A stretch of 42,366 bases of DNA from a virus. The DNA lies in the IMG/VR virus record IMGVR_UViG_3300013126_000075, positions 1 through 42,366 of that record. One strand, given 5' to 3'. The notes beneath the pieces are model-generated. The model did not search any database. It saw nothing but the letters and a program-made list of their open reading frames with translations, and was not told the origin of the DNA. The position numbers were made by a program, and so were the translations under genes. Shown piece by piece: positions 3,350 through 42,366 of this stretch. Each line of letters starts with the position of its first letter. The first letter of the stretch is position 1.

Positions 3350-6300
3350 AAATCTCGAACCCGTACAAGGCGGCTAGTTCTTCGGCCTCTTGTCTACCTG
3401 CTCTGGCAGATGACTTGAGTGCCCTAGCTGCCAGTGGTTTAGTAGCTTCTTTATACGCTCTGTTCACACCACCACTGAAATTTTTAATCTCAAGGCGTGT
3501 ACCTTTAACATCCTCATTCCAATCACGTACATAAGCTTGGACATTTGCAAGGCGGTCTTGGTCGCCATTGATTCTTGCTGCAACAGCCTCACGTATAGCT
3601 TCACTTCTAATCATCTGACCATAGCGTTGCTCTTGGTCATCGGCCATCATCCAATCCATCTGCACCTGAGCACGACTTGGGTAGAAGCCCACTGCCTTAC
3701 CGATAACCTCCCAAGCAGTTACATCTTGAGAAACCACATAGCCTTTACTATCTAGGATTGCACCTGTATTGGCGTACTTCCAAGCTTCAGTGGCGTTCTT
3801 AATAGCCCTAGCAGGGAAGTCTGTAAGTATCTTGCTGAATGGTTGTCTGCCTGTAATCACTGAAGGTATAGTTCCGGCTGCCCAGTCAAACGCACCAATC
3901 ATAAATGAGGTTGGCGCACCTGCCAAGTTCTCTACTTCACGCAATTTTTCCTGTGCAGAAGCAGATGGTTTAAACAAGGCAGTGCCCGGTACAATATCGC
4001 CAAGTCCCAAACGATTTGAGAATGACCATCCAGTGGTAGCATCCAGTAAACCACGCAACATGACAGGGCTAAGTGCCGCACCAAGTTCCGGGCCAAAGGC
4101 ATCACGAGTTAATCGGGCAAATTCTTTCTCTACTGAGCCGGACTGCAAGCCCATGCGCTGCATTAAACCGTCAATAATATCCAGTAAGTCGTCAGCACCC
4201 GGCAGGCCACGCAAACCAGACAGTAAAATCAGTGAACCCAGCATGATAATCTTACCGTTGCGGTCCATATTTTTGAGCAGCTGTAACATAATGATTGGAT
4301 ACTGCTTGTACATATAGACGAATGACATCAGGCCGCCACGGAAGAACGCTGGTCGGTTGTACTGTGAGTAGTCACCTTGTGTAGCATCGAGGGCTTTGTC
4401 AGCAGCTATACGTGCAGCATCGTCAGCCTGACCGGGGGTTTTGCCAGCAGCAATCTGGCGTTCATACTCACCACGGTAGGCAGCAAGCACAGTTACACGG
4501 CGGTTGAACTGCTCTGAATAACTGAATGGGAACATCCATGTCTGAACAAATTTCTGGAAGGTTGGGTTACCCATAAAGCCTTTGCGCCCGCGCACTGTAC
4601 CGGTTAGGGCGTTGAACTGGGCAGCATCCAGACGCTGTTCTTCCGTCAGGTCTTTTAAGAATCGTAACTCAGCACCAGTGATACCATCTTTGTTCTCATT
4701 AGCACCAGTGCGCTCAAGTTCTGCAAGCTGGGCGTCCAAGAAGTCCACATTGATGTACTTAGGATTGGCGGCAGCGATAGCAAACTTGGACAGTAATGCA
4801 CCAGCACGACCAGCACCAAGGCCAAGGCCAAAGTTATTCTCTGGGTTATATGATGACAAGTAAGCCCATGAGTTGGTAGGCAGTGACAGCATCTGTGTAA
4901 TACCTGTGGCGATAGAACCACCAAGCTGGGCAACCGCAGCCCAAGTACGTGCGCTCAGTGAGAACTGGTTGTTATTCCAGAAGTCATCAGCAAACACAAT
5001 GTCCCCAGTAGAGTCTTGCCAATCAAGCTGTGATTTGGCGCGTTCTTTATACCAGTTACCGCGCAGTACGTTAGTGTCGCCGACTTTCTCATTGGCTTTT
5101 TCGAAGTAGTATTTTTCTTGGTAGTACTCACGTGCTGCCAGTTCCTTGGCTGGGCCAGTAGCAGCTTCCCACTTGGCTTTAAGTTCTGCCAGTCGGTCAC
5201 GGTTACCAAACCAGTTGTTGTTATCTTCCAGTACCCCGTCAAACTGGTGGCGGAATGTCTTGTTAGCTGCAACATAAGCCTGCTGCTCAAGGAAGGCGGA
5301 TGAACTACGGACAACATCTTTGTCCCAGCCCGGTACACCAGCACGTTGTAAGTTAGCACGAGCCCTAGAGTTTTGTGCGGTAACTTTCTTAATCAGAATC
5401 TCACGGTCAGCTACTGGCATCTGTACACCCAAGCGACTAAGAGCATACATCACATCATCATAGTGCATGATGTCTACCAATGCAGGTGTAGTTTCTACAT
5501 CACTGACGATGGCTTTCAAGTACACTGAAACCACGCGGTTGTTGGCATCTCGCATGGTGTATTCGCCAGTAAGTAAGCCGTTTAACTCCTCAGCGTATCC
5601 AATAGACTCGTCTTTTTTCTCAGTCATAAACAGCGGTAAGGAATCCTGCTGCCCTTGATGCAGCTTAACTGGCTCCTCGTTACCATCAGCGTCAATGGTG
5701 TATGCTTGCACACGAACTTGGAACTTGCCTCGGCGAGATAGGGGGGCATAGCCACCAGCAATACTGCGCTTGGCATATAGTGAGTCATCGTTCAATGATA
5801 TGGTGAACGTACTGCGTTCCTCCATGGCGTAAGCCACAGGCCAGATTGATGAATCGGTGATGGCGTCTGTATCAGGGTCAATCTTTACACGCAGCTTATC
5901 CCGTAGCCCAATAACCAAAGTCTTAACTTCGTCAGGGGTGTAGTTAGGCAGCTTGGTTGCGAAATCATTAAGTGCGTTGTCGTTGTAGAATGACCGAGCA
6001 AAGCGCATTTCAGCATAATCCACAGCGTCAGCTTGAGATACTTCGTTCATCTTGAATCGGTTGTTCTCGTAGGACGAGCCTTCCATAGCGATACGGTCAT
6101 GCTCATCAGATACAGCAGTAATAAAGCGGCGTTCCGCCTCAGTCAAAGCTTTACTAAAGGCACGGTCAATACCACGATTAAGTACACGTTCTTGCTCGTA
6201 CATGGCTCCGTCATACTTGGCAGCCAATACATCCATCTGGCTTTCGTTGATAGCTTCACGGAACTGTAAGTACATCTTGTACTGGATACTATCTTCGGTC

Positions 6301-9300
6301 ATATCTTTAACCCATGCGAAGTCAGCCATGTCTTTGGTGTTCACATAGTTAGGTGCGCTGTATGTGTTGCTGTCGATTTGTTTCTTATATGACAGCTTGG
6401 TGCTACGCAGCATGGAATCGAATTTATCTTCCGTCTTGTCGTATGTAGCCTGCAATGAGGTCTTTACCTTGGTATCTTTGGCTGTGTCAATCTTACGCTG
6501 GATACGGTCAAGGTCACGTTTCTTGCGTGCTTCTATTACTGCAACTTCTTGGTCACGCTCAGACTCCAGCTGGGCTTTATACTCAGCTGTCATTGGTTTC
6601 TCAGTGTAACCCGTCTGAACATCAAAGCCTTTTTTGAAGTCGGCTACAGATAAAGTACCAGCTTTAGACAGTGACTCAAACGCATCTGGGTTCATAACGA
6701 TTTGACCCAGTTCAGTGGAGTATGCGATAGGGGCTTCAAACTTAGATTGCAGTTGTGAATCAGAGAACTGGTTACCTTTCAGTAGTGAACCAAGAGCCAG
6801 TAGTTGTCCAGCCTGTTGTGATTCCATAGGTTCAGGACCGTCACCGAACATCAGGAACTTAGCTTCGTGTGCAAGCTGTGTTAGCTTAGAGTATTTTGTC
6901 TTGAGTTTCTGCTGCATCTCACCTTTACGTTGGGTAAGACTGAAAACCAGTGCCGCACCCTTACTATCACGAGCCATGTCATCTTGAGTACGCAGAAGCC
7001 CAAAGAAGTTCTTCATGGTGTCCTTGGCGTTTACTTTTGTACCGTCATATTTACGGCGTAGGTCTGCAACTTTGGCATCGTTATTGTTCAACCAGTTCAT
7101 AATGCCTTCTAAACCACCGGTTGAAGTGACGTTTTGATTCATGGCGTTCATGGCAGCAGTTTGCTGGCCTTGTGGCGCGAGTTGGGCAAATCTTAATACC
7201 TCAACATCAGACCGGTCGAGTTCTCGCATCGTAGACGCTTCCTGCAAGAGAGTTTTTAGGTTGACCTCTGAACGACCCACACCTTGACGTACATACTTGC
7301 GTGATAGACTTACTAAGTAGCGAGCAGCATCATCGTTGAACTTGAATCCTAATTTATTCAGCTGGTTTTTAAGCCATGTCCAGAATCGCATCATGGTTGA
7401 TGAGTCGATTGCAGCTGCGCGGTCAGACAAAACTTCTTCCACGGCTTCCAAGAACGGAATATTCTGTACTTCTGACAGAACTACTGCTGCGTTGTTAACC
7501 TGCACATCAGAGTCAGCGATTGACTGTAAGATTTTATTAAGCTGTGCGTCACTGAACAAACCACGGAAACCTACGTGCCCCAGAATCTCATGAGCCATGA
7601 TAAAGTTGGCGTGTTTCTCACCATTGATATTGTCAGCAAACAGAACGACAGTGTTTCCCCATGCCATACCAGCGGCGTTGACAGCCTCGAAGTCCCCGGC
7701 CTTACGAGCGGCGGCAGCTTCTCTAAACAACTTGGGATTTGTCTTACGCATATCATCCAGATTCTGGAACACATGAACCTTAGGTTTACGAGCCAGCTTG
7801 GATACGAACTTAGTTGCCATCAGGCGCAATGGACCTGCTTTCATTGGTTGGCTTGGCTTTTCATCAGCGCGGTAGTAGTTAGCTAGGTCACCATACACGT
7901 TATCATCCTCACGGATGCCTGACTCTTGCTGGAATTTAAGTTCCAGTGCAGCACGCTGGTCTTCCTCTGCATACTCCAGTTCAAGGTCGCGCAATACTTT
8001 ACGCGATTCTGCATGAACCTTAGCAAATTCTTCACGCGACATCTTGGCTTCTTCCACGCTGGACAGAACATACCTACTTGTGCCCGGCTTCTGCACTACG
8101 ATTGGTTTACCATCTTTAAAGAAATCCTCGATAGACCCGCGCTCGCCGACTACGAACGCAGTATCCTCAACTTGTTTATACAAAGCTTCCGCCTTGCGAG
8201 CTAAGGCTTTACGGTCAAATTCACCTTCTCGGTTATTGATAATAGTAGCAAGTTGTATTGCTGCACGGTCAATTTCCTCAACGGTATCATCAGCTTCCTT
8301 AACTGCCAGCGTAACTTCCTCATCTTTCTTAGCAGATACACGCACACCAATCTTAGGGTCGTTGAGCAAATTGTAATCGTTCAGCAGGGTGTACAGGCGT
8401 GAGCGAGGGTTGATGCTTGGCATCGTGATTGCAAACGCACGTAAGGCTTTAGTGAACTCAGCCACAGGGATAGGCTCTGCACCGAACAGGAACTCATTGG
8501 CTGTCTTGAATAACTTAGTAGCTTGGTTTGTTTCAGTAACGAATACATCCACGATGTCGTTCATTGCAACTTCGTACTCTTTAGGTGAGCCGGTAGTTTC
8601 CACAGTTTCAATAGCAGCCTCAAGTGCTTGTTGCGCGGCTAATGTTTCAGTTGATGCCTCACCTGACTTCTTCTCCTTCTCCTTCTCCTGTGCTGGAGAT
8701 GTGACCTGAGCGACTAACGATGCTAAAGATGTTTGTGGTACTTGAGCCGGTGCAGCTTGAGCTTTAGGTGCTTTAAGTCGTTGCTCACCTACCGGTGCGG
8801 CAGGTGTAGCCTTAGTCGTTTCAACTTTAGATTCTTTCTTCAGTGCTGCTTTGCCAGTTGGTTTAGGTGGTGTCGGCTCTGGTGGTTTAATACCACCGAT
8901 ACGGTCAGCCTCAGCCATCGAAGCTTTATTGGCTTCGACTAAATCAGTCCACTCTTTACGCTGTGCATCAGATAGCTTTTCCCATGTCGGTGCTTTGGGG
9001 TCGCGCTTGTCACGCCACTGAGTACGGGCTTCACGCTCCACGGACAACCGTGCTGCCTTTGCCTGCTGAGCAGCCTTTACATCTTGTAAACCTTTTCCTT
9101 GCTTTTCCTGCGTGGCTTTCTCAGTCAGTTTCTTGACAGCCTTAGATACTGTAACCGCATTGACTGGTCTACCTGTTGGTGGAATCTGACTGCCACCAAC
9201 CTCTGGAATACTACGGACTGGGCTCTTAACACCGGCAGAACGCAAGGCAGCTATAGTGGGTTCACCATCTTGGGTAAACAGTGACGTTTGTTTGGTGCGG

Positions 9301-11366
9301 CGCAGGTCAACTTTAGGTGCAGCCATGACGACAGGTGCGCCCTGTTGTTGGGGTGCAGGAATCCCACGGCGAATACGCTCACGCATTGATGGTTTAGGTG
9401 CTTGACCTCTACCAAACAGTTGTAGTTGCTGCGGGTTCGGCGCACGAGTTTCACGCATAGGTAGCTGAGCTACGGGTTCAGGCGCAGGTTGTGCCAAGTC
9501 TAACTGACGTTGGTTCTGTGCCACGATTGCAAGGCGATTGAGTTCTGCCTGACGTTGCTGTTCCTGTGCAAGTTGTTGCTGCTCGATAGCCTTAGCCACC
9601 TCTGCCTGCTGCATAGCAAGTTGCATCTGCGAAACCGGCGCATTGACTGGTGTAGGTGCAGGCGGCGGAGGCGCAAACTGTAGCTGTCCTTGGCGGGGGT
9701 CAGTATTAGGTTGCTCTCCTAGGTATGGTATCCCTAATGGATTCTCAAGAGTACTGCGTTGCTGTAGCTCAGCAATGGTCGCACCTTCAGGTCCAAAGAT
9801 GTCGAGCACACCCTGTTGTCCAAACTGACCCGGTGCAACTTCACCTGAGTAAATTGTATCACTAGGGCGTGATGGTCTGGTTGTACCATCAGGGGCAGTA
9901 ATCATGTCAGGGCGACCCATCATGCCGCCGGTAGTGACAGGGCCTTGAGGTACACCCGCTGGTGGTTCAGTAATAGTAAGTGCAGTGCTTTGTGGTGCAG
10001 GCTCTGGTGATTGCTCTGGGTTTAGTAAGTTAGTAGGCTGGTCACCCACTGGAGTCTTACCCTTACGCAGGTTAGCGATACCACCTAATGGACTACCTAC
10101 ACCAAAGCCTGCGGCAAATGCTTCGAGAAAACGCTTCTGCGCTTCAGGGCTAGTCAAGTCCTGACCAGATAACCCCATGACAAGAGCTTCCTGCCCAAGT
10201 TCAGTAGCACCCTCAAGTGGCCCACCAACGGCAGCTCCAACAACACCGCGTTTGAGTAATTCCCCAGCACGCTTAGCACCTGTACCTAACGCAGTAGCAC
10301 CTTGGATGGATGCCAAGTCTGTACCCGTACCCTTGATACCGCCAAAGATGCGGGATGCTAAAACAAATTCCGGTAAAGTTTCCAGTGCGGCGTATGGAAT
10401 AGACCCCAGCAGCGCACTAAGTCTAGCCCCTGCATCATCAGCAGTTGCCCCTTGCTCTCGTTGCTCACCGTAAATATCTGCCGCACCTGTAGCAATATTA
10501 CTACCATAAGACGCAGCCAATGCCCCGGCAGTACCAGCGGCATTACGCAACAATTTGGTTTCTACTTCAGTAAGGGCTTCACCAGCGGCTTTCTTCTTGG
10601 CAGCTGCCATGATGGATTGCTTAACAGCAGACTTACCTAGGATACCAGCAGCACCAGCATAAAGACCAGCGAGCGGGCCACCAGCGGCAGTACCAGCACC
10701 GAAGCCTGCAAGCCCAACAGCCATTGACTCAAGCAGGTTAGGACCTTGCTGCGCCAAGTTAGCCACGAACCAATCGACAGCATCGCCGCCTGACTCGATA
10801 TTTGAGAACTCACGTTGGAACGGCGTAGTCTTGTTGAGGTCTTTGATTTGCTGGTCGACTATAGATTGACCAGTTTGCTCAGCACCAAGTAACTGCATAC
10901 CCCTGCCCGCAAGCAGTTGCATATTGTCTACGCCAATACCAAAGTTCTTCTTAGCTAGACGACCAAGGCTAGGGTTTCGGATAGACTCTAGGAATTGCCC
11001 ATATGCGTTCTGGTCTATCGGAGTCCAGTTACCAGTGGTAGGTAAGCCAACAGATGGATAGGAAAGGTACTGCTCAGACTGTAAAGCAGTAGTAGCGTCA
11101 TCAGCGTCAAAAGTAATACCGTTAACATACAGTTTGTTTTCCGTAGGATTAAAGGCAATAGCCGGAGCCTGCTTCAACTCCGGCATTGTGAACTGACTTT
11201 GCTTAACGATTTGCTGCCCGACAGCAGCCATGTCTGCTAAAGATGGGGCTAACCCATTCAACCCTATGTCTGACGTAGGGCTGTTAATCGCATATGGATT
11301 AGCCTCAGGCCCTAGGTTAGATTTCGCCAGAAACGGGTCAGCAAACGAAAGACCTTCTTTAGCCAT
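3342..11366 (-). CDS. Giant virion/ejection polypeptide (PLxRFG and LPD38-like domains)
   Basis: 2674 residues, the last gene of the late block. Residues ~200-400 contain Gly/Ala-rich hydrophobic helices that could insert into membrane, ending in an APLEGATE-type segment. Residues ~440-1000 are Pro/Gln/Lys-rich low-complexity linker. AHEILGH (H1259, E1260, H1264) resembles a zincin helix but with HExxxH spacing. PLSRRGKF at 1875-1882 matches the PLxRFG signature of giant phage polyproteins. Residues ~2200-2450 (WMFPFSYSEQFNRR..., TQGDYSQYNRP..., hydrophobic IIMLGSLILLSG) resemble the large polyvalent protein-associated domain LPD38. By position it corresponds to T7 gp16, an internal protein ejected with the DNA. 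It could also act on host targets after ejection. Domain names are from memory of the families. Confidence 0.8.
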   Translation of the reverse strand: MAKEGLSFADPFLAKSNLGPEANPYAINSPTSDIGLNGLAPSLADMAAVGQQIVKQSQFTMPELKQAPAIAFNPTENKLYVNGITFDADDATTALQSEQYLSYPSVGLPTTGNWTPIDQNAYGQFLESIRNPSLGRLAKKNFGIGVDNMQLLAGRGMQLLGAEQTGQSIVDQQIKDLNKTTPFQREFSNIESGGDAVDWFVANLAQQGPNLLESMAVGLAGFGAGTAAGGPLAGLYAGAAGILGKSAVKQSIMAAAKKKAAGEALTEVETKLLRNAAGTAGALAASYGSNIATGAADIYGEQREQGATADDAGARLSALLGSIPYAALETLPEFVLASRIFGGIKGTGTDLASIQGATALGTGAKRAGELLKRGVVGAAVGGPLEGATELGQEALVMGLSGQDLTSPEAQKRFLEAFAAGFGVGSPLGGIANLRKGKTPVGDQPTNLLNPEQSPEPAPQSTALTITEPPAGVPQGPVTTGGMMGRPDMITAPDGTTRPSRPSDTIYSGEVAPGQFGQQGVLDIFGPEGATIAELQQRSTLENPLGIPYLGEQPNTDPRQGQLQFAPPPPAPTPVNAPVSQMQLAMQQAEVAKAIEQQQLAQEQQRQAELNRLAIVAQNQRQLDLAQPAPEPVAQLPMRETRAPNPQQLQLFGRGQAPKPSMRERIRRGIPAPQQQGAPVVMAAPKVDLRRTKQTSLFTQDGEPTIAALRSAGVKSPVRSIPEVGGSQIPPTGRPVNAVTVSKAVKKLTEKATQEKQGKGLQDVKAAQQAKAARLSVEREARTQWRDKRDPKAPTWEKLSDAQRKEWTDLVEANKASMAEADRIGGIKPPEPTPPKPTGKAALKKESKVETTKATPAAPVGEQRLKAPKAQAAPAQVPQTSLASLVAQVTSPAQEKEKEKKSGEASTETLAAQQALEAAIETVETTGSPKEYEVAMNDIVDVFVTETNQATKLFKTANEFLFGAEPIPVAEFTKALRAFAITMPSINPRSRLYTLLNDYNLLNDPKIGVRVSAKKDEEVTLAVKEADDTVEEIDRAAIQLATIINNREGEFDRKALARKAEALYKQVEDTAFVVGERGSIEDFFKDGKPIVVQKPGTSRYVLSSVEEAKMSREEFAKVHAESRKVLRDLELEYAEEDQRAALELKFQQESGIREDDNVYGDLANYYRADEKPSQPMKAGPLRLMATKFVSKLARKPKVHVFQNLDDMRKTNPKLFREAAAARKAGDFEAVNAAGMAWGNTVVLFADNINGEKHANFIMAHEILGHVGFRGLFSDAQLNKILQSIADSDVQVNNAAVVLSEVQNIPFLEAVEEVLSDRAAAIDSSTMMRFWTWLKNQLNKLGFKFNDDAARYLVSLSRKYVRQGVGRSEVNLKTLLQEASTMRELDRSDVEVLRFAQLAPQGQQTAAMNAMNQNVTSTGGLEGIMNWLNNNDAKVADLRRKYDGTKVNAKDTMKNFFGLLRTQDDMARDSKGAALVFSLTQRKGEMQQKLKTKYSKLTQLAHEAKFLMFGDGPEPMESQQAGQLLALGSLLKGNQFSDSQLQSKFEAPIAYSTELGQIVMNPDAFESLSKAGTLSVADFKKGFDVQTGYTEKPMTAEYKAQLESERDQEVAVIEARKKRDLDRIQRKIDTAKDTKVKTSLQATYDKTEDKFDSMLRSTKLSYKKQIDSNTYSAPNYVNTKDMADFAWVKDMTEDSIQYKMYLQFREAINESQMDVLAAKYDGAMYEQERVLNRGIDRAFSKALTEAERRFITAVSDEHDRIAMEGSSYENNRFKMNEVSQADAVDYAEMRFARSFYNDNALNDFATKLPNYTPDEVKTLVIGLRDKLRVKIDPDTDAITDSSIWPVAYAMEERSTFTISLNDDSLYAKRSIAGGYAPLSRRGKFQVRVQAYTIDADGNEEPVKLHQGQQDSLPLFMTEKKDESIGYAEELNGLLTGEYTMRDANNRVVSVYLKAIVSDVETTPALVDIMHYDDVMYALSRLGVQMPVADREILIKKVTAQNSRARANLQRAGVPGWDKDVVRSSSAFLEQQAYVAANKTFRHQFDGVLEDNNNWFGNRDRLAELKAKWEAATGPAKELAAREYYQEKYYFEKANEKVGDTNVLRGNWYKERAKSQLDWQDSTGDIVFADDFWNNNQFSLSARTWAAVAQLGGSIATGITQMLSLPTNSWAYLSSYNPENNFGLGLGAGRAGALLSKFAIAAANPKYINVDFLDAQLAELERTGANENKDGITGAELRFLKDLTEEQRLDAAQFNALTGTVRGRKGFMGNPTFQKFVQTWMFPFSYSEQFNRRVTVLAAYRGEYERQIAAGKTPGQADDAARIAADKALDATQGDYSQYNRPAFFRGGLMSFVYMYKQYPIIMLQLLKNMDRNGKIIMLGSLILLSGLRGLPGADDLLDIIDGLMQRMGLQSGSVEKEFARLTRDAFGPELGAALSPVMLRGLLDATTGWSFSNRLGLGDIVPGTALFKPSASAQEKLREVENLAGAPTSFMIGAFDWAAGTIPSVITGRQPFSKILTDFPARAIKNATEAWKYANTGAILDSKGYVVSQDVTAWEVIGKAVGFYPSRAQVQMDWMMADDQEQRYGQMIRSEAIREAVAARINGDQDRLANVQAYVRDWNEDVKGTRLEIKNFSGGVNRAYKEATKPLAARALKSSARAGRQEAEELAALYGFEISN

Positions 11367-11378
11367 AACTACCTCACT

Positions 11379-13262
11379 TTATATTGTACCTTTTGCCCAG
11401 CTCAACGATGGAAGGTTTGCGATTGGATGTGCGCCTCTTGATTCTATTTTAACACCATCAACCTCAATAGTGGTAGGCGTTGGGTTATAGTAGAACACAT
11501 CAGTAGACCCCGATGGTTTAATAAACACACCTCCATCAGCAGCACCAGAAGGTTTGACCTCCATACCATACTTAGCTTTAGCCATTTCTTGGTTGATTGT
11601 GTTCTGCCCTTTGATACCTTCAACAGTAACATCAGCAATCATCTTAGCATAGGCCTTAGCGTTTTCTTTCATAATATCTAAGCTGGTGTCCAGACGTTTC
11701 ACAGAAGCCTCGCTAGATACCTGAGCCATAGTCTGACGGTAACCACTGTCAAATGAGCGGCGAGCCAAGTCAGCCACTTCAGATGGGTCAATACCCTCTT
11801 TAGTCATAGTGCCGTTAACGAACACGTTATACATACCATCAGTACGAGGTTGGAACGCAATCGGTGTACCCGCGTAGTGACTTGCCACAGCAGATAAGCG
11901 GCGTGGGTCGTTAGCGTTAGTTAAGTCTTGTAATCCTTGCATACCTTGCAGGTAGAACATACCCTCATCAAGTTCGATGATTTTATTTCGCAGTTCCATG
12001 TACTGCATACCCATACCAGAACGCTGGTACATACCAGCTAGGCGCGAGAGTTCGTCACGTTGGCGTAGAGCACGCTGCATATCACCACCGATTGCCTCAG
12101 GATTCGCCAGATAGAAGTCACTGACTTTTTTCTGTACCGCTGGCGTTGGTGGCTTAGTGCCAGCAACTTTAACAATCTGCCCATCAGGTGTGATTGGTAC
12201 ATCTTTGATTATAGATGGTTGTTCGCTACCAACAAGCTTCATTGTTTTGGCTACATAGTCACGGGTTTCCTTAGGTAGCTTACTCATATCGCCACCATTA
12301 GCCAACCACTTGTCAGTTGCAGTCGGTCCCATGTTATAGGAAATCAGCTGAAGTACTTGGTTATTACCATACTTCTCAGCCATCTTGAGCGAGTACATAT
12401 TGCCATACTCAGCACCTATCTCAGGCATTTTTAAAAGCGCAGCCGCCGTAGCAGCATCACGTTTACCTACTTGGATACCTTTAGCCGCAGCAAAATCGAA
12501 TACGTTAGGTAACCCAAAGCCGGGGTCCATGGCTGTCTGTGGCATGACCTGCATTAGACCTGTAGCACCTTTAGGACTTACAGCATTTGTATTACCACTA
12601 CTCTCAACCTGTTGCTGTGCGGCCAGAAGTTTTTGTTGGTCGGGTGTACCAATAGTTCCAGCTTTTGTCCGGTCAACCATCCAGTACTCAACGTCATTCG
12701 GGGTATACATTTTAGTATCTGACTTAGCTGGGGTTGTTGCTCCCGGCTTCGCAGTCACCATGCCGGTCGGCATCCCACTGGGAGCAAGTCCCGGAGCGAT
12801 TAGATTTCGAGCAGCATTGAGCCCTTTAACCACAGCCCCGCCGACTATATTAGATGGTAAGTTCTGCTTCATACGGGCGTAGCGGTCCATCTCAGCTTGT
12901 TGCTCTGGTGTGGGCGCAGGCTGCGGCATCAAAGAGCCCGGAGGTAGAATGTTACCTTGTTTCAGTTGCTCTAACCGTGCCTGTTCAGGTGTCATAGTAA
13001 CCTGAGCTGGCGCAGCTACTTGTGGCGCAGCTACCGGAGCCACTGGCACTTGATGTACATCAGGCTTAGCAAACTGACCCATCAAGTCAGGCGTCTGCGG
13101 CATTGGAGCCTGAGTCATCTCACGGCGTAGATTATTGAGGCGGTTCTGTTCCTCAATCTTTAGCTGATTTTCTTGCGCCCTACGCTGATTTTCTTCCTCA
13201 TTGCGCCACCCAATACCTACCCGACCGGCACCACTGAGAACTTGTCCTAATGTTAAACTCAT
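11379..13262 (-). CDS. Internal virion protein with SLT lytic transglycosylase domain
   Basis: 627 residues. The first ~100 residues are Gln/Pro/Ala-rich and disordered-looking, after a short N-terminal segment. A goose-type/SLT transglycosylase domain spans ~200-340: catalytic E220 in QQVESSG, then ATGLMQVMPQTA and the later SYNMGP. The enzyme would cleave peptidoglycan glycan strands locally to let the ejection apparatus cross the cell wall, as the transglycosylase domain of T7 gp16 does. Here it is a separate protein next to the giant polypeptide. The C-terminal ~280 residues are helical with no recognised domain. It begins 12 bases downstream of the 512-residue gene stop in the same operon. 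Confidence 0.85.
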   Translation of the reverse strand: MSLTLGQVLSGAGRVGIGWRNEEENQRRAQENQLKIEEQNRLNNLRREMTQAPMPQTPDLMGQFAKPDVHQVPVAPVAAPQVAAPAQVTMTPEQARLEQLKQGNILPPGSLMPQPAPTPEQQAEMDRYARMKQNLPSNIVGGAVVKGLNAARNLIAPGLAPSGMPTGMVTAKPGATTPAKSDTKMYTPNDVEYWMVDRTKAGTIGTPDQQKLLAAQQQVESSGNTNAVSPKGATGLMQVMPQTAMDPGFGLPNVFDFAAAKGIQVGKRDAATAAALLKMPEIGAEYGNMYSLKMAEKYGNNQVLQLISYNMGPTATDKWLANGGDMSKLPKETRDYVAKTMKLVGSEQPSIIKDVPITPDGQIVKVAGTKPPTPAVQKKVSDFYLANPEAIGGDMQRALRQRDELSRLAGMYQRSGMGMQYMELRNKIIELDEGMFYLQGMQGLQDLTNANDPRRLSAVASHYAGTPIAFQPRTDGMYNVFVNGTMTKEGIDPSEVADLARRSFDSGYRQTMAQVSSEASVKRLDTSLDIMKENAKAYAKMIADVTVEGIKGQNTINQEMAKAKYGMEVKPSGAADGGVFIKPSGSTDVFYYNPTPTTIEVDGVKIESRGAHPIANLPSLSWAKGTI

Positions 13263-33784: not shown

Positions 33785-33851
33785 TTTACTCTCCTTGACC
33801 AACTCCATATGGTCTATTATACTTGTACCTACACCACATGGAACCACTACT

Positions 33852-34367
33852 TTGAACTATACTACACTACCATCGCAGCAAGAACTAATATCCATATTTA
33901 CGTACGACTCTGCTACAGGCTTATTGTATTGGAACCCTAGGCCAGAAAACATATCTTGGAACAAGGTATTTGCTGGAAAACCTGCTGGATGCTTAGACTC
34001 TAAGGGGTACATCCGTATTAGAACCTCTGGAAAAATCTGGAACGCCCATAGAGTTATATGGAAAATGGTCTATGGTATAGACCCAGAATTTATAGACCAT
34101 ATAAACGGAAATAGAGCCGACAATACCATTAAAAATTTGCGGTCTGTATCGCAGACGGAAAATGCGCGTAACACCAAACGAAAAAAGCACAACACGTCTG
34201 GGGTTTCTGGAGTGCATTGGGTTAAAAAAGACCAGCGGTGGTTGGCTACTATCTACCACAAAGGTAAGCGTATTGGACTTGGGCAATATAAATCGTTTGA
34301 TGCGGCAGTGGCAGCCAGAAAACTTGGTGAGCAGGTGTATGGATACCACAAAAATCATGGTAGGTAG
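33852..34367 (+). CDS. HNH endonuclease with AP2 DNA-binding domain
   Basis: 171 residues from a TTG start at 33852 (MNYTTLPSQQELISIFTYDSATGLLYW), the usual N-terminus of this family; no ATG is available. An HNH core holds AHRVIW (H66) and IDHINGNRADN (H83, N85, N91). An AP2-type domain (~117-168: SGVSGVHWVKKDQRWLATI...GLGQYKSFDAAVAARKLGE) follows. Such proteins are free-standing or intron-linked homing endonucleases. It lies on the strand opposite the terminase genes, in the space before TerL. A weak promoter-like pair (TTGACC 33795-33800, TATTAT 33815-33820, 14-base spacing) precedes it. Start is an inference. Confidence 0.78.
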   Translation: MNYTTLPSQQELISIFTYDSATGLLYWNPRPENISWNKVFAGKPAGCLDSKGYIRIRTSGKIWNAHRVIWKMVYGIDPEFIDHINGNRADNTIKNLRSVSQTENARNTKRKKHNTSGVSGVHWVKKDQRWLATIYHKGKRIGLGQYKSFDAAVAARKLGEQVYGYHKNHGR

Positions 34368-35512: not shown

Positions 35513-35776
35513 ATGGCTCAACAAGCTACTGTTAAGAGGTCTATCGCCCCTGTTACTTTCACTATCGAAGTAACGGCCACGAGGGTCAATGAAAACGGTA
35601 CATTCTCTGGCATCACTGCCAAGATTGTTAAACAACCGAAAGGTTGCGAGTTCATGACCAGTGTACCACCAATGGCAGGCGGTGCGGTTTACTTCAAGAC
35701 ACAATCGCTGGAAGGCATCACGCTAGTCGAAGGTGATAGCCAGAAAGCACCAGCCGAGAAGAAAAAATTGTTCTAA
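35513..35776 (+). CDS. Small beta-rich protein, paralogue A
   Basis: 87 residues. The sequence (KRSIAPVTFTIEVTATRVNENGTFSG..., SVPPMAGGAVYFKTQSLEGITLVEGD) is strongly beta-patterned with a short charged tail ending KKKLF. It is clearly paralogous to the protein at 37176-37445: the blocks KxSIxPVTFxxEVTATxVNENGTFSG, PPxAGGAxYxK and LxGxxxVEG are shared. TAGGAG precedes its ATG and a terminator follows. Both copies flank the repeat-rich noncoding region. Not recognised; a small nucleic-acid-binding fold or structural role is possible. Confidence 0.75.
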   Translation: MAQQATVKRSIAPVTFTIEVTATRVNENGTFSGITAKIVKQPKGCEFMTSVPPMAGGAVYFKTQSLEGITLVEGDSQKAPAEKKKLF

Positions 35777-37145: not shown

Positions 37146-37175
37146 ATTTTTTATTACACTTTAGGAGTAGTTATT

Positions 37176-37445
37176 ATGGCTATTACAGCTACGTTGAAGA
37201 AGTCTATCAAACCAGTTACATTTTACCTTGAAGTTACAGCTACCAAAGTCAATGAGAACGGTACATTCAGTGGCTTAACTGTGCAGAAAGTATCATCATC
37301 CGTTAAGTCCAATGAAACAATCAGGGCTAGTATACCACCTCAAGCTGGTGGTGCTATGTACCTCAAATGCGATGACCTTAAAGGCCTTGAGTTCGTAGAA
37401 GGTACACTGACTGGTGCTACCGTTGAGCAGAAGGAACTGTTTTAA
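37176..37445 (+). CDS. Small beta-rich protein, paralogue B
   Basis: 89 residues from ATG 37176 (MAITATLKKSIKPVTFYLEV), chosen over an upstream start at 37062 because AGGAG lies 8-12 bases before it and because the paralogue begins at the same point. It shares the core blocks of the protein at 35513-35776 and ends similarly (EQKELF). Beta-rich, no catalytic motif. First gene of the right-hand early operon. The pair of paralogues on either side of the iteron-like region suggests a functional link to it, which is inference. Confidence 0.75.
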   Translation: MAITATLKKSIKPVTFYLEVTATKVNENGTFSGLTVQKVSSSVKSNETIRASIPPQAGGAMYLKCDDLKGLEFVEGTLTGATVEQKELF

Positions 37446-38779: not shown

Positions 38780-38959
38780 ATGAAGCTATTTGCATTGCGT
38801 GATGATAATCACAAACTGGTTAAGGATAACAACGGACAAGTTGTTTATTTCTCAAGCAAAGAAGCGGCACGTAAGTACCGTGCCCAGTTGACTAGCGACC
38901 AGTCAACCTATTTCGTAACCTACGGCATTGACCATAAATCATATAAGGGGAATAAATAA
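38780..38959 (+). CDS. Small protein before MoxR-like gene
   Basis: 59 residues: MKLFALRDDNHKLVKDNNGQVVYFSSKEAARKYRAQL...TYFVTYGIDHKSYKGNK. It reads like a small beta-beta-alpha protein with an AARKYR helix. TAGGAG upstream; its stop overlaps the next ATG (TAATG). Shape is reminiscent of short phage proteins that carry a SKEEARxxR segment, but function is unknown. Confidence 0.65.
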   Translation: MKLFALRDDNHKLVKDNNGQVVYFSSKEAARKYRAQLTSDQSTYFVTYGIDHKSYKGNK

Positions 38960-39945
38960 TGCGAGCCACACTGCTTAAAGAAACACTCAAGTCACTCTTT
39001 CCACTACAACGTACAGTATGTATCGAGGGTAGCCCCGGTGGTGGTAAGACTACAATGGTGCATGAGTTGGGTGAAGAACTGCAAGTGCCAGTGGTTGAGC
39101 GTCATATGCCTACCATGCTGGTCGAGGACTTCGGTATTATGTTCCCAAGTGGTGATGATGGGTTGAAGTACCGTATACCTGACTGGTTTCCAGTTAAAGG
39201 CAAGTCCCCTGAACGTGGCATCTTGTTGTTTGATGACCGCAACCAAGCAAGTCCTGACTTGCAGAAAGTATTAGCCAACATCTGCCAAGCACGAACACTA
39301 CATGGTGTACCAATGCCTGATGGGTGGATGGTAGTATCGACTGGTAACAGACAGTCTGACCGTGCTGGTGCTAACCGTGTGCTTAGCCATCTGCGTAACC
39401 GTGAAACAGTTATCGAACTTGAAACACACCTTGATGACTGGACTACATGGGCTATTGACCATGGCGTAAGGCCTGAGGTTGTTAGCTTCATTCGCTTTAG
39501 ACCGAACCTGTTACATGACTTCGATGCACAGCGCGACCAAAACGCTACACCTCGTAGCTGGGTTGAAGGTGTGAGTGATGTACTTGGTACAGTGCCAGCT
39601 GAAGCAGAGTATGAGTGCTTTAAGGGTGCAGTAGGTGAGGGTGCGGCGGCAGAGTTTGTTGGCTTTATGCGTATCTACCGTAAGTTACCAAACCCTGATG
39701 CAATCCTGCTCAATCCCAAGACAGCAGACGTACCGACTGACCCTGCGACACTGTATGCTTTGAGTGGTGCATTGGCTGAACGTGCTACCGAGAGCAATTT
39801 TGACCGAGTTTGCACCTATACGGAACGTATGCCACCTGAATTTTCTGTACTCGCTGTAAGTTATGCGGCTCGTAAGAACCCTGACCTTAGCAACACTCAA
39901 GCGTTTACGAAGTGGGCAATGGCACACCAAGACGTGTTGTTCTAA
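38959..39945 (+). CDS. MoxR-family AAA+ ATPase
   Basis: 328 residues. Walker A GSPGGGKT at 24-31. The Walker B-like ILLFDDRNQ at 88-96 has D92-D93 instead of the more usual D-E. Sensor 1 STGNR (127-131) and an arginine-rich region after it (GANRVLSHLRNR) follow, and the C-terminal lid is helical. MoxR ATPases act with von Willebrand factor A partners as chaperone-like remodelling machines. A VWA-containing protein is encoded three genes later, which fits the typical pairing. Overlaps the 59-residue gene by one base. Catalytic Asp in place of Glu is worth checking; ATP hydrolysis may be altered. Confidence 0.82.
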   Translation: MRATLLKETLKSLFPLQRTVCIEGSPGGGKTTMVHELGEELQVPVVERHMPTMLVEDFGIMFPSGDDGLKYRIPDWFPVKGKSPERGILLFDDRNQASPDLQKVLANICQARTLHGVPMPDGWMVVSTGNRQSDRAGANRVLSHLRNRETVIELETHLDDWTTWAIDHGVRPEVVSFIRFRPNLLHDFDAQRDQNATPRSWVEGVSDVLGTVPAEAEYECFKGAVGEGAAAEFVGFMRIYRKLPNPDAILLNPKTADVPTDPATLYALSGALAERATESNFDRVCTYTERMPPEFSVLAVSYAARKNPDLSNTQAFTKWAMAHQDVLF

Positions 39946-39965
39946 TAGAACATCCTATGTATAAT
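39937..39965 (+). promoter_or_regulatory. Possible promoter before HNH gene
   Basis: TTGTTC (39937-39942), a 17-base spacer and a perfect TATAAT (39960-39965) at the end of the MoxR-like gene. A small dyad TGTTCT-AAT-AGAACA overlaps it. May serve the HNH gene and genes after it. Confidence 0.45.
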
Positions 39966-39990
39966 AGTCCATATTAAACAGGAGAACGAC

Positions 39991-40572
39991 ATGGGATATG
40001 AGAACGTCATTAAAGCAAACAAAGCAAGAGCCATACATGGGTTACACAACACACGAGCGTATGTTATATGGCAACAAATGATACAACGGTGTTACAACCC
40101 TAAGCAGCGTAGCTATAAGCGGTATGGAGGTGCAGGTATTACTGTTTGTGATAGATGGCGTTACTCATTCCCAAACTTCTTTAGTGATATGGGACATCCA
40201 CCTGATGGTATGACACTAGACCGTATTGATAATAGTAAAGGGTATGAGCCTTCGAATTGTAGGTGGGCTACACCAGAAGAACAAGCTAATAACCGTAAAA
40301 CAAACGTGTTTATAGAGTATGAAAATAAAACCATGACCATTGCAGGGTGGGCTAGGCATTACGGAATACCGTATCACTGGGTAAAAGCTAGGTATAAAAG
40401 TGGAGTAAGACCACCTGAACTGTTCAGTACGAAAAACCACAGGGGTGAAAACAAAAAGTACTTAGTTGAATATCAAGGTAGGCAAGTATCACTTAAAGAA
40501 TTATCTTCCATAACAGGAGTTAATTTACAAACGCTTTACTACCGAATAGCAAACAACAAACCTTTATATTAG
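39991..40572 (+). CDS. HNH-type homing endonuclease-like protein
   Basis: 193 residues. HGLHNTRAYVIWQQMIQRCYN, YKRYGGAGITVCDRWRYSFPNF, MTLDRIDNSKGYEPSNCRWATPEEQANN are the familiar core of phage HNH proteins (H16, H19; D77, N81; NCRW at 89-92). Two C-terminal segments (TIAGWARHYGIPYHWVKARY and SLKELSSITGVNLQTLYYR) look like nuclease-associated HTH repeats. It separates the MoxR-like gene from its likely operon partner and has CAGGAG upstream. Probably a mobile free-standing endonuclease. Composition more AT-rich than its neighbours. Confidence 0.78.
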   Translation: MGYENVIKANKARAIHGLHNTRAYVIWQQMIQRCYNPKQRSYKRYGGAGITVCDRWRYSFPNFFSDMGHPPDGMTLDRIDNSKGYEPSNCRWATPEEQANNRKTNVFIEYENKTMTIAGWARHYGIPYHWVKARYKSGVRPPELFSTKNHRGENKKYLVEYQGRQVSLKELSSITGVNLQTLYYRIANNKPLY

Positions 40573-40581
40573 GAGGACAAG

Positions 40582-41430
40582 ATGAACCTGAATGACCGAG
40601 CATTACTTGTGCAGTTATCCGTTAGTCAGTGGACTGCACGTAAGTATGACAAAAAAGTAACCCAAGAAGTAGCCAGTGCCAATGGGGTAGCCAGTGGTGT
40701 GGGTCGCTATAACAAGTCGCTGTTACCCATGAATGATATGCTGGATAACGTGCATAAGAAAACTACCCATATCCGTACCAAGTTCTATGAGAATACCCTG
40801 CCATGGGGTATTGAAGGCACGATGATGCTACCGACTGCTAACTATCTGCGCTTTATGACTGAGTTCCGCAAGGAAAAATCCGAGTGGGAGTTACTTGTGA
40901 ACCGCTTTATCTGGGACTATCCCAAACTCAAGGCTGATGCACAGCGCATACTTGGTAGCCTGTATAACGAAGCAGACTACCCGACAGTTGATGACCTCAA
41001 GACCAAGTTCAAAATGGACATGGCTATATTCCCTGTACCTGCAACAGACTTCCGTGTGCAGATTGCAAGCGATGAACTGACACGTATCCAGCAAGATGTT
41101 GAGGCACGTGTTAAGTCTGCCCAGTCTACGGCTATGAACGAAGCATGGAACAGACTGTATGAACGTGTTAAGAACATGGCTGAAAAGCTGGCTGACCCTA
41201 GTGCTATCTTCCGTGATAGCTTGGTAGAAAATACCCGTGAGTTATGTGCCTTATTACCACGACTGAACTTCGCTGATGACCCACACTTGGAACAGATGCG
41301 GCAAGATGTTGAGGCGTCATTACTCAAACACCCTGAAGCCTTACGCAATGACCTTGACCTGCGTAAAGATACTGCTGATGAAGCGAAAGCTATCATGGAT
41401 AAGATGAAATCATTTATGGGAGTAGCGTGA
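40582..41430 (+). CDS. DUF3150-like partner of MoxR ATPase
   Basis: 282 residues, almost entirely helical. MNLNDRALLVQLSVSQWTARKYDKKVTQEVA, then LLPMNDMLDNVHKKTTHIRTKFYENTLPWGIEG, a long helical middle, and AMNEAWNRLYERVKNMAEKLADPSAIFRDSLVENTRELC. The N-terminal LLVxLxVSxWTxRKxDKxV pattern and position between MoxR and VWA genes resemble DUF3150 proteins, a family of unknown function that I recall from such clusters. Family name is from memory. AGGAGG precedes the ATG. Its stop overlaps the next ATG. Confidence 0.65.
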   Translation: MNLNDRALLVQLSVSQWTARKYDKKVTQEVASANGVASGVGRYNKSLLPMNDMLDNVHKKTTHIRTKFYENTLPWGIEGTMMLPTANYLRFMTEFRKEKSEWELLVNRFIWDYPKLKADAQRILGSLYNEADYPTVDDLKTKFKMDMAIFPVPATDFRVQIASDELTRIQQDVEARVKSAQSTAMNEAWNRLYERVKNMAEKLADPSAIFRDSLVENTRELCALLPRLNFADDPHLEQMRQDVEASLLKHPEALRNDLDLRKDTADEAKAIMDKMKSFMGVA

Positions 41431-41513
41431 TGGAACTGATATTTAATTGGGATTTTATTGCTGGTTACATTACTGGCATGATTGTTTACTGGCTACTATG
41501 GAGGAAAAAATAA
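41430..41513 (+). CDS. 27-residue membrane peptide
   Basis: MELIFNWDFIAGYITGMIVY, ending WLLWRKK. One hydrophobic helix with a basic C-terminus. It starts inside the TGA of the DUF3150-like gene (TGATG) and ends in TAATG shared with the VWA gene. GGAGG of the next gene lies inside its last codons. Coupling on both sides makes translation likely despite the size. Confidence 0.55.
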   Translation: MELIFNWDFIAGYITGMIVYWLLWRKK

Positions 41514-42366
41514 TGACACAAACTGATGAACCAAAAGTAATGACGCCTGATGAAGAAGCAAAGCTGGTGCGCCGTATGGCTAAGGCACGTACCTCACTGG
41601 TACTTGAACACGCTTTCATTGGTAACATTGCATTGAACCTGCCAGTTAAACTGGACTACACCATCAAGACAGCGTGTACTAACGGCCATGAGATACGGTA
41701 CAACCCGTGGTTTGTGAACGGTATGACTGATGAAGAAGTAAAGTTCCTGATTGCACATGAGTGCTTTCACCCTATGCTTGAACACCCGACACGTATCAGA
41801 GGCCGCGACCATCGTAAGTTTAACCAAGCTGGCGACTATGTAATCAACCAGCTACTGACTGACGAACACATTGGTAAGATGCCTACTGGTGGCCTACTAA
41901 ACAAGGCAATCTATGACGCTGCTGGTGGTACGACTGACGGTATCTACAATATCTTGCCTGATAATCCTGACGGTGATGACCCACTTGATGACTGCGAAGA
42001 TAGCGGCGGTACACCAGCCGAACAGCAACAGCTTGCCGCAGAGTGGAAAGTCCGTGTAGCACAGGCGGCACAGGCCGCTAAGATGATGGGTCAGTTGTCA
42101 GCTAACATGGCACGACTGGTAGATGATGTGCTTGCACCGAAGGTAGACTGGCGTGATGTACTGCGTAGGTTCTTATCCAAAGCACGTACTGACGAGCGTT
42201 CATTCGCTAGGTTTAACAGACGCTTTGTATCACAGGGATTGTACTTGCCTAGTGTGAGTGGTGAAACAATGGGTGAGATTGTATTTGCAGTAGACTGTTC
42301 AGGTTCTATTGACCAGCATACTATCAACCAGTTTGCCGCAGAGATACAGGCCAGCCGTGATGAAGC
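41513..42366 (+). CDS. Metallopeptidase-like / VWA protein (DUF2201-like), 3' truncated
   Basis: The first 284 residues are visible; the gene runs off the window. An HExxH site is HECFH at residues 82-86 within TDEEVKFLIAHECFHPMLEH. After an acidic linker (~150-180) the MIDAS start of a von Willebrand A-like domain appears: VFAVDCSGSI with D261, S263, S265. This pair, a zincin-like N-terminal half plus VWA-like C-terminal half, is the layout of DUF2201-type proteins that pair with MoxR ATPases. GGAGG precedes the ATG. Whether the HExxH site is an active protease cannot be told. Confidence 0.8.
   Translation, partial: MTQTDEPKVMTPDEEAKLVRRMAKARTSLVLEHAFIGNIALNLPVKLDYTIKTACTNGHEIRYNPWFVNGMTDEEVKFLIAHECFHPMLEHPTRIRGRDHRKFNQAGDYVINQLLTDEHIGKMPTGGLLNKAIYDAAGGTTDGIYNILPDNPDGDDPLDDCEDSGGTPAEQQQLAAEWKVRVAQAAQAAKMMGQLSANMARLVDDVLAPKVDWRDVLRRFLSKARTDERSFARFNRRFVSQGLYLPSVSGETMGEIVFAVDCSGSIDQHTINQFAAEIQASRDE

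Follow-up and report, generated by a model that had tools for sequence, protein, structure and literature searches.

The trio and its components

The window analyzed here is the whole of a 42,366-base IMG/VR virus record, IMGVR_UViG_3300013126_000075, which is classed as linear and belongs to an uncultured, podovirus-like clade. At its 3′ end, on the plus strand, lie genes for a MoxR-type AAA+ ATPase, for a DUF3150-like protein (the third component) and for a protein that joins a metallopeptidase site to a VWA domain (Table 1). It is close to certain that these three genes, hereafter the trio, are a conserved unit, and it is likely that their products form one machine. Chance is excluded as the source of the arrangement by strong purifying selection together with near-complete linkage. 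The pair made up of MoxR and the metallopeptidase-VWA protein has already been published, whereas the three-gene version with a DUF3150-like protein appears to be new.

Table 1. Features at the trio locus, with positions in the window
Feature	Position	Strand	Basis
59-residue open reading frame (ORF)	38780..38959	+	ORF list, sequence; homologues in loci of 9 relatives
MoxR-type AAA+ ATPase, 328 residues	38959..39945	+	PHROG_1297, E 7.7e-69; AAA_5, 21.8 bits
Walker A, GSPGGGKT	39028..39051	+	sequence, alignment
Walker B, ILLFDD, with Asp replacing the usual catalytic Glu	39220..39237	+	sequence, alignment
HNH endonuclease gene	39991..40572	+	PHROG_3377, 1.1e-61; sits between MoxR and third gene
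DUF3150-like third component, 282 residues	40582..41430	+	hhalign against PF11348 members; viral structure match
Metallopeptidase-VWA gene, first 284 codons, cut by contig end	41513..42366	+	PF13203, E 3e-45
Zinc-site motif, HECFH	41756..41770	+	alignment, sequence
DCSGS, first part of the VWA metal-ion-dependent adhesion site (MIDAS)	42293..42307	+	alignment, sequence

The AAA_5 score of the ATPase falls just under the Pfam cut-off of 22 bits, and a homologue in phage MinM2 scores 23.6 bits. A phmmer search of PDB sequences with the MoxR protein gave no match at E values up to 0.1. The Walker A motif is conserved across 81 aligned phage MoxR rows, as are three residues that we take to be the sensor 1 Asn, an Arg-finger-like Arg and the sensor 2 Arg. 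The catalytic Glu position of Walker B is Asp in 79 of these 81 rows; MinM2 and Presley, both within the alignment set, have Glu. Copies from Cloacimonadota and Tannerella share the Asp. Glu is found in phages that have the pair but not the third gene, in the genome-bin contigs L093 and L094 and in the majority of copies from plasmids and chromosomes; the pattern used did not resolve two of the plasmid rows. The Glu-to-Asp exchange may slow ATP hydrolysis.

The metallopeptidase-VWA gene most likely starts at the tabulated ATG, which is preceded by a ribosome-binding-site-like GGAGG at 41500-41504; an upstream TTG at 41447 is a possible start. In the window fragment PF13203 is the only family over its cut-off, the VWA part being cut. 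The first-pass annotation of this DNA had read a MoxR ATPase and a protein with both an HExxH site and a VWA MIDAS, and had proposed completing the truncated gene. Both readings hold, through PHROG_1297, PF13203 and the motifs, and the closest relative, L002, provides the completion: its entire VWA protein has an intact HExxH and MIDAS, with PF13203 (3.9e-46) and PF09967 (2.6e-25) both over their cut-offs. These two families in one protein constitute the DUF2201-type metallopeptidase-VWA architecture. Across 29 aligned relatives, down to 29% identity, H86, E87, H90, D112, D265-x-S267-x-S269 and D349 are invariant, and the MIDAS Thr, T325, is at least 90% conserved, Ser replacing it in the two most divergent rows. 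The HExxH motif and the conserved Asp that follows it fit a putative zinc peptidase.

A structural model of the VWA protein (mean pLDDT, the predicted local distance difference test, of 82.5) has a VWA fold in its C-terminal part, with matches to VWF A2, integrin I and complement factor domains at Z scores of about 11-12.6 over 124-151 residues. The N-terminal part bears a weak resemblance to the small protein MJ1213, selecase, presumably a metallopeptidase (Foldseek probability 0.99, E 0.017; sequence E 0.011). PHROG_1314 carries the label “HNH endonuclease”, and the same name is given to metallopeptidase-VWA proteins of many phage records. This label is likely a propagated misannotation, because Pfam gives PF13203 and PF09967 instead.

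For the 282-residue protein, a DUF3150-like nature had been guessed, and profile-profile comparison bears the guess out. An alignment of 26 homologues compared by hhalign with five PF11348 members gave Prob 92.7 and E 4e-7 over 218 columns, against Prob 0.3 for a control with the VWA family. Among sequence searches, this comparison alone detects the link. Single-sequence scans of Pfam, PHROGs, NCBIfam and PADLOC returned no family at a meaningful score, the Pfam DUF3150 model had no match in the window at E values up to 1, and an hmmsearch with the third-component profile of ORFs from five DUF3150 loci found no match. Applied to a homologue in the genome of L094, the Pfam model reaches 22.3 bits (E 4.5e-5) against a cut-off of 24.9. 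On these comparisons, the third component is a distant DUF3150 relative and not a member by the Pfam rule. The protein had also been described as all-helical, but a model of moderate quality (pLDDT 73.3; predicted template modeling score, pTM, 0.48) shows three short strands besides helices. Searched against viral models, its structure is closest to that of a phage protein annotated as DUF3150 (E 2.4e-17). In the PDB, structural comparison matched a mixture of helical bundles at Z scores under 10, and a sequence-profile search brought up scattered helical proteins; both sets were treated as chance.

Linkage of the trio in phages and genome bins

Of 195 relatives found in viral contigs with the MoxR protein, the 80 best, with 76-95% identity, were kept; loci without enough room on the contig are excluded from the counts. 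Starting from MoxR in these 80 loci, the third gene follows in 57 of the 58 with 3 kb of room and the VWA gene in all 49 with 4.5 kb, a recurrence in other phages that the first-pass annotation had proposed to look for. Starting from the third gene, in all 76 loci that carry it, MoxR lies upstream in 55/55 and VWA downstream in 64/64. Third-gene loci on contigs outside the first set number 53, and in these MoxR is upstream in 35/35 and VWA downstream in 45/45 with room; the 23 contigs shared by the MoxR and third-gene sets were picked by eye from a table. The phages in these counts are one clade and not independent. One MoxR locus (L037) has 3.7 kb downstream that lacks the third gene and VWA, and the contig ends there. 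The ratio of nonsynonymous to synonymous substitution rates (dN/dS) is 0.04-0.13 for the three genes, which indicates purifying selection.

More telling than the within-clade counts is the shuffled gene order in 13 contigs binned with bacterial and archaeal genomes, some of which are perhaps phage contigs. All three genes are present in nine, and six of these have the order of the window, one (L092) has MoxR-VWA-third and two (L093 and L094) have third-MoxR-VWA. The four contigs without the full trio are L088, L091, L095 and L096; L088, L095 and L096 stop in the third gene itself or no more than ~0.3 kb away from it. At the end of the L096 contig there is a fragment of the third gene, and the 5.9 kb upstream of it yielded no match to MoxR. 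In L085 the VWA gene is split over two frames.

In the window an HNH endonuclease gene separates MoxR from the third gene. In a search of L002-L081, this gene turned up at the MoxR/third-gene junction of L002 and L079 alone, besides the window. Between the copies of the window and L002, dN is 0.59 and dS is >2, whereas the three flanking genes have a dS of 0.30-0.39, a contrast consistent with successive replacement of one homing endonuclease by another at the same site. The HNH gene is an optional homing-type insertion and stands outside the gene set of the machine. The trio lies on one strand with near-invariant linkage; the first-pass annotation, which spoke of one operon with small coupled genes, had not separated off the HNH gene as an insertion. 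A second homing-type gene, with HNH_3 and AP2-like domains, occupies 33795-34367 (+) and adjoins the terminase gene on the opposite strand.

Related trios on plasmids and chromosomes

PF11348 exceeds its cut-off in 5 of 274 genomes searched. At all five chromosomal loci a protein with HExxH and DxSxS directly follows DUF3150, and an AAA+ gene lies upstream at four. One chromosomal-locus DUF3150 protein matches 1147 of 72,556 plasmid records, 971 of which are typed conjugative. Seven plasmid DUF3150 loci all have an AAA+ gene, one of them annotated as a cobalamin biosynthesis protein, and six have a VWA-annotated protein with HExxH and DxSxS; the Aeromonas one is without HExxH. The AAA+/DUF3150/HExxH-VWA set is thus complete in six of seven plasmid loci and four of five chromosomal loci.

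Recombination genes accompany many of these copies. A RecT, Bet, exonuclease or “DNA recombinase” gene is near six of the seven plasmid loci. By Pfam, three of the five chromosomal loci have YqaJ (in two) or PDDEXK_1 with SSB (in the third) nearby, and Rad52 adjoins a Cloacimonadota copy. The trio of IncC and related plasmids resembles that of the window clade in having AAA+, DUF3150 and VWA genes on one strand and a VWA protein with HExxH and DxSxS. It differs in its flanks, which are ssb, bet and exo, and in its ATPase, which sits on a deeply separate branch. In the one chromosomal copy scanned, the VWA protein is CobT-like and not DUF2201-type. In a tree of 38 ATPases, plasmid and chromosomal copies stand apart from phage-type ones with full support, and the trio label requires four changes; shuffled labels required 7.4, and none of 500 shuffles needed so few. 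A single origin of the trio is compatible with this tree but not demonstrated by it.

The pair without the third gene

The pair is more widespread in phages than the trio. In tblastn searches, the VWA protein had matches in 300 phage records and the MoxR protein in 636. Ten records inspected at the VWA gene, among them Schitoviridae, Bacillus phage G, two further jumbo phages, cyanophage S-TIM66 and roseophage CRP-7, each have a same-strand ATPase gene nearby, and the MoxR profile matched in the eight that were tested. The third gene is present in MinM2 only. A hidden DUF3150-like gene was sought in pair-only phages and found in 0/8. The pair lies near a DNA polymerase in Presley, CRP-7 and Rhizobium phage RHph_TM27A. 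In Acinetobacter phage Presley (L083), the gene after VWA, at 7224-8450, is annotated exonuclease V and matches AAA_30 and UvrD_C_2 helicase domains.

Two published systems with the pair are close. Group 2.2 jumbo phages encode, according to the passages available of PMC7824862, a MoxR protein beside a fusion of an N-terminal metallopeptidase domain to vWA, as in the window; those passages name no third gene, and none was found in Serratia phage BF. The second is gp24/gp25 of phage N4, core genes of N4-like phages (excerpts of PMC4193335 and PMC7650795), a pair homologous to that of the window in which the ATPase precedes VWA and which lies near replication genes in Presley. Unlike in the window, a third component was not detected in Presley or RHph_X2_28B. 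The excerpts of PMC4193335, from 2014, describe 24 and 25 as middle genes of no known function, with 25 as vWFA, in agreement with the remark that the role in phages was not settled; gp24 is named an AAA+ ATPase in those of PMC7650795. No paper in the literature searched mentions “DUF3150”, and no functional study of the trio was found in the titles, abstracts and passages on the pair, the N4 genes and DUF3150.

Genomic neighborhood

The minus strand of the window encodes the head-tail adaptor/portal, major head protein, internal virion protein, tail fibers and terminase; the plus strand carries the trio and a DUF927 primase/helicase-like gene. Among the loci of relatives, terminase is upstream on the opposite strand in all 51 that show it, and DNA polymerase A is downstream on the strand of the trio in all 30 that show a polymerase. 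Within the clade, the trio thus belongs to the replication arm and is divergent with respect to terminase. By portal protein, the nearest cultured relatives are RHph_TM27A and kin (37%). The third gene was not found in the five portal relatives searched; only RHph_TM27A of these has the VWA protein, and its MoxR/VWA pair is near DNA polymerase I.

The stop codon of the 59-residue ORF shares one base with the MoxR start (TAATG), an overlap suggesting that the two are possibly translationally coupled. Other conserved neighbors of the trio are mostly unassigned, with the exception of a DUF3310-like and an HslV-like protein. The latter (L049, 10893-11357; PHROG_1040, 2.4e-21) is encoded downstream of the trio, belongs to a cluster in 21 loci and is a second proteolysis-type gene close to those of the machine. 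Another neighbor, conserved in 53 loci (L002, 10747-11370; L009, 10593-11222), has a match below the cut-off to Nmad5, a nucleotide-modification associated domain. Similar small proteins of 87 and 90 residues, encoded at 35513-35776 and 37173-37445 (+), flank a stretch of ~1.4 kb; L002, L003 and other relatives have comparable pairs. On the minus strand, a 2674-residue protein (3342-11366) matches PHROG_11358 over ~760 residues near its C terminus, and a 627-residue protein (11379-13262) has PHROG matches of the lytic tail and internal virion transglycosylase type. No RNA families or tRNAs were found within the window.

A proposed ternary machine and its probable target

In the proposed mechanism, the MoxR, DUF3150-like and metallopeptidase-VWA proteins would work as one ternary machine. 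The MoxR AAA+ ring would provide ATP-driven remodeling. The VWA protein would be the adaptor of the ring, with the MIDAS contacting substrate or ring, and its N-terminal zinc-peptidase domain would process the substrate or be switched by the ring. The DUF3150-like protein would be a dedicated third subunit. RavA-ViaA, CoxD-CoxE and CbbQ-CbbO likewise consist of a MoxR AAA+ protein acting with a VWA co-factor, as proposed for the window; to our knowledge, these are cellular systems with neither a DUF3150 partner nor a fused HExxH domain.

The machine most likely has as its target a protein complex that sits on replicating or recombining phage DNA, because the trio lies with replication genes in the clade and recombination genes are near the plasmid and chromosomal trios. 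We infer mutual binding of the three proteins, an active peptidase and a replication or recombination complex as the target, and hold the chances of such a ternary machine acting there to be about even. Several observations count against it. Neighborhood is indirect evidence, and early genes serve many roles. Among the five chromosomal and seven plasmid DUF3150 loci, no recombination gene was found near two and one, respectively, and a deep split divides the ATPases of plasmids from those of phages. In excerpts of PMC2791158, deletion of bet, exo, s067, s068 or s070, some of which may be trio genes, reduces SXT transfer by at most 10-fold; a large recombination operon beginning at s089 is described in the available part of PMC4344509. 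Finally, many phages have the pair alone, so the third protein may be accessory, and in Serratia phage BF the pair is beside virion structural genes.

The location of the pair in BF leads to the main rival, next after replication or recombination, in which MoxR-VWA is a chaperone-peptidase that folds and trims structural proteins during virion maturation. Assembly of phage complexes was among the roles first suggested for the window, and virion assembly has been proposed for the jumbo-phage pair by analogy with an archaeal virus tail (passages of PMC7824862); in N4-like roseophages, a second structural module is near the gp24/gp25 homologues (passages of PMC4193335). In the window clade, however, the trio is on the replication arm, opposite terminase and outside the structural cluster, and a similar trio is found on plasmids, which produce no virions. 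A role in virion assembly is the less likely reading for the trio.

Targeting of host proteins or countering of defense was suggested as well. A weapon of this kind, a MoxR-loaded peptidase that cleaves or disassembles host or defense proteins early in infection, would suit a trio that shares its arm with small early-type genes and has an invariant peptidase site. It is unlikely, since the genes are conserved under purifying selection without the patchiness expected of host-specific effectors, and the PADLOC defense library yields weak P-loop matches only.

MoxR-vWA ternary systems with other third components are described in the accessible portions of PMC7159879 and PMC12839542, and share with the window a dedicated third protein and a peptidase that is sometimes fused to vWA (PMC7159879). 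A phage-borne conflict system of this VMAP/iSTAND style, directed at competing elements, is nonetheless very improbable: third components in those portions of PMC7159879 are VMAP, iSTAND and others and not DUF3150, the Pfam scan of the DUF3150-like third protein includes no VMAP-type or iSTAND family, although a missing match proves little, and the genes are conserved and not diversifying, with invariant peptidase residues.

Returning to the replication or recombination machine, a broader version can be put forward tentatively. The trio could represent an undescribed ternary ATP-gated peptidase-remodeler of mobile elements, namely phages, IncC-type plasmids and chromosomal islands, that would clear or mature the protein complexes on DNA as this is transferred or undergoes recombination-dependent replication, with the Walker B Glu-to-Asp exchange in this clade and its Cloacimonadota and Tannerella relatives tuning a slow cycle. 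A three-part machine would tie N4 gp24/gp25 and DUF3150, with its 1147 plasmid records, to one testable function, and its candidate role would concern how mobile elements handle their DNA.

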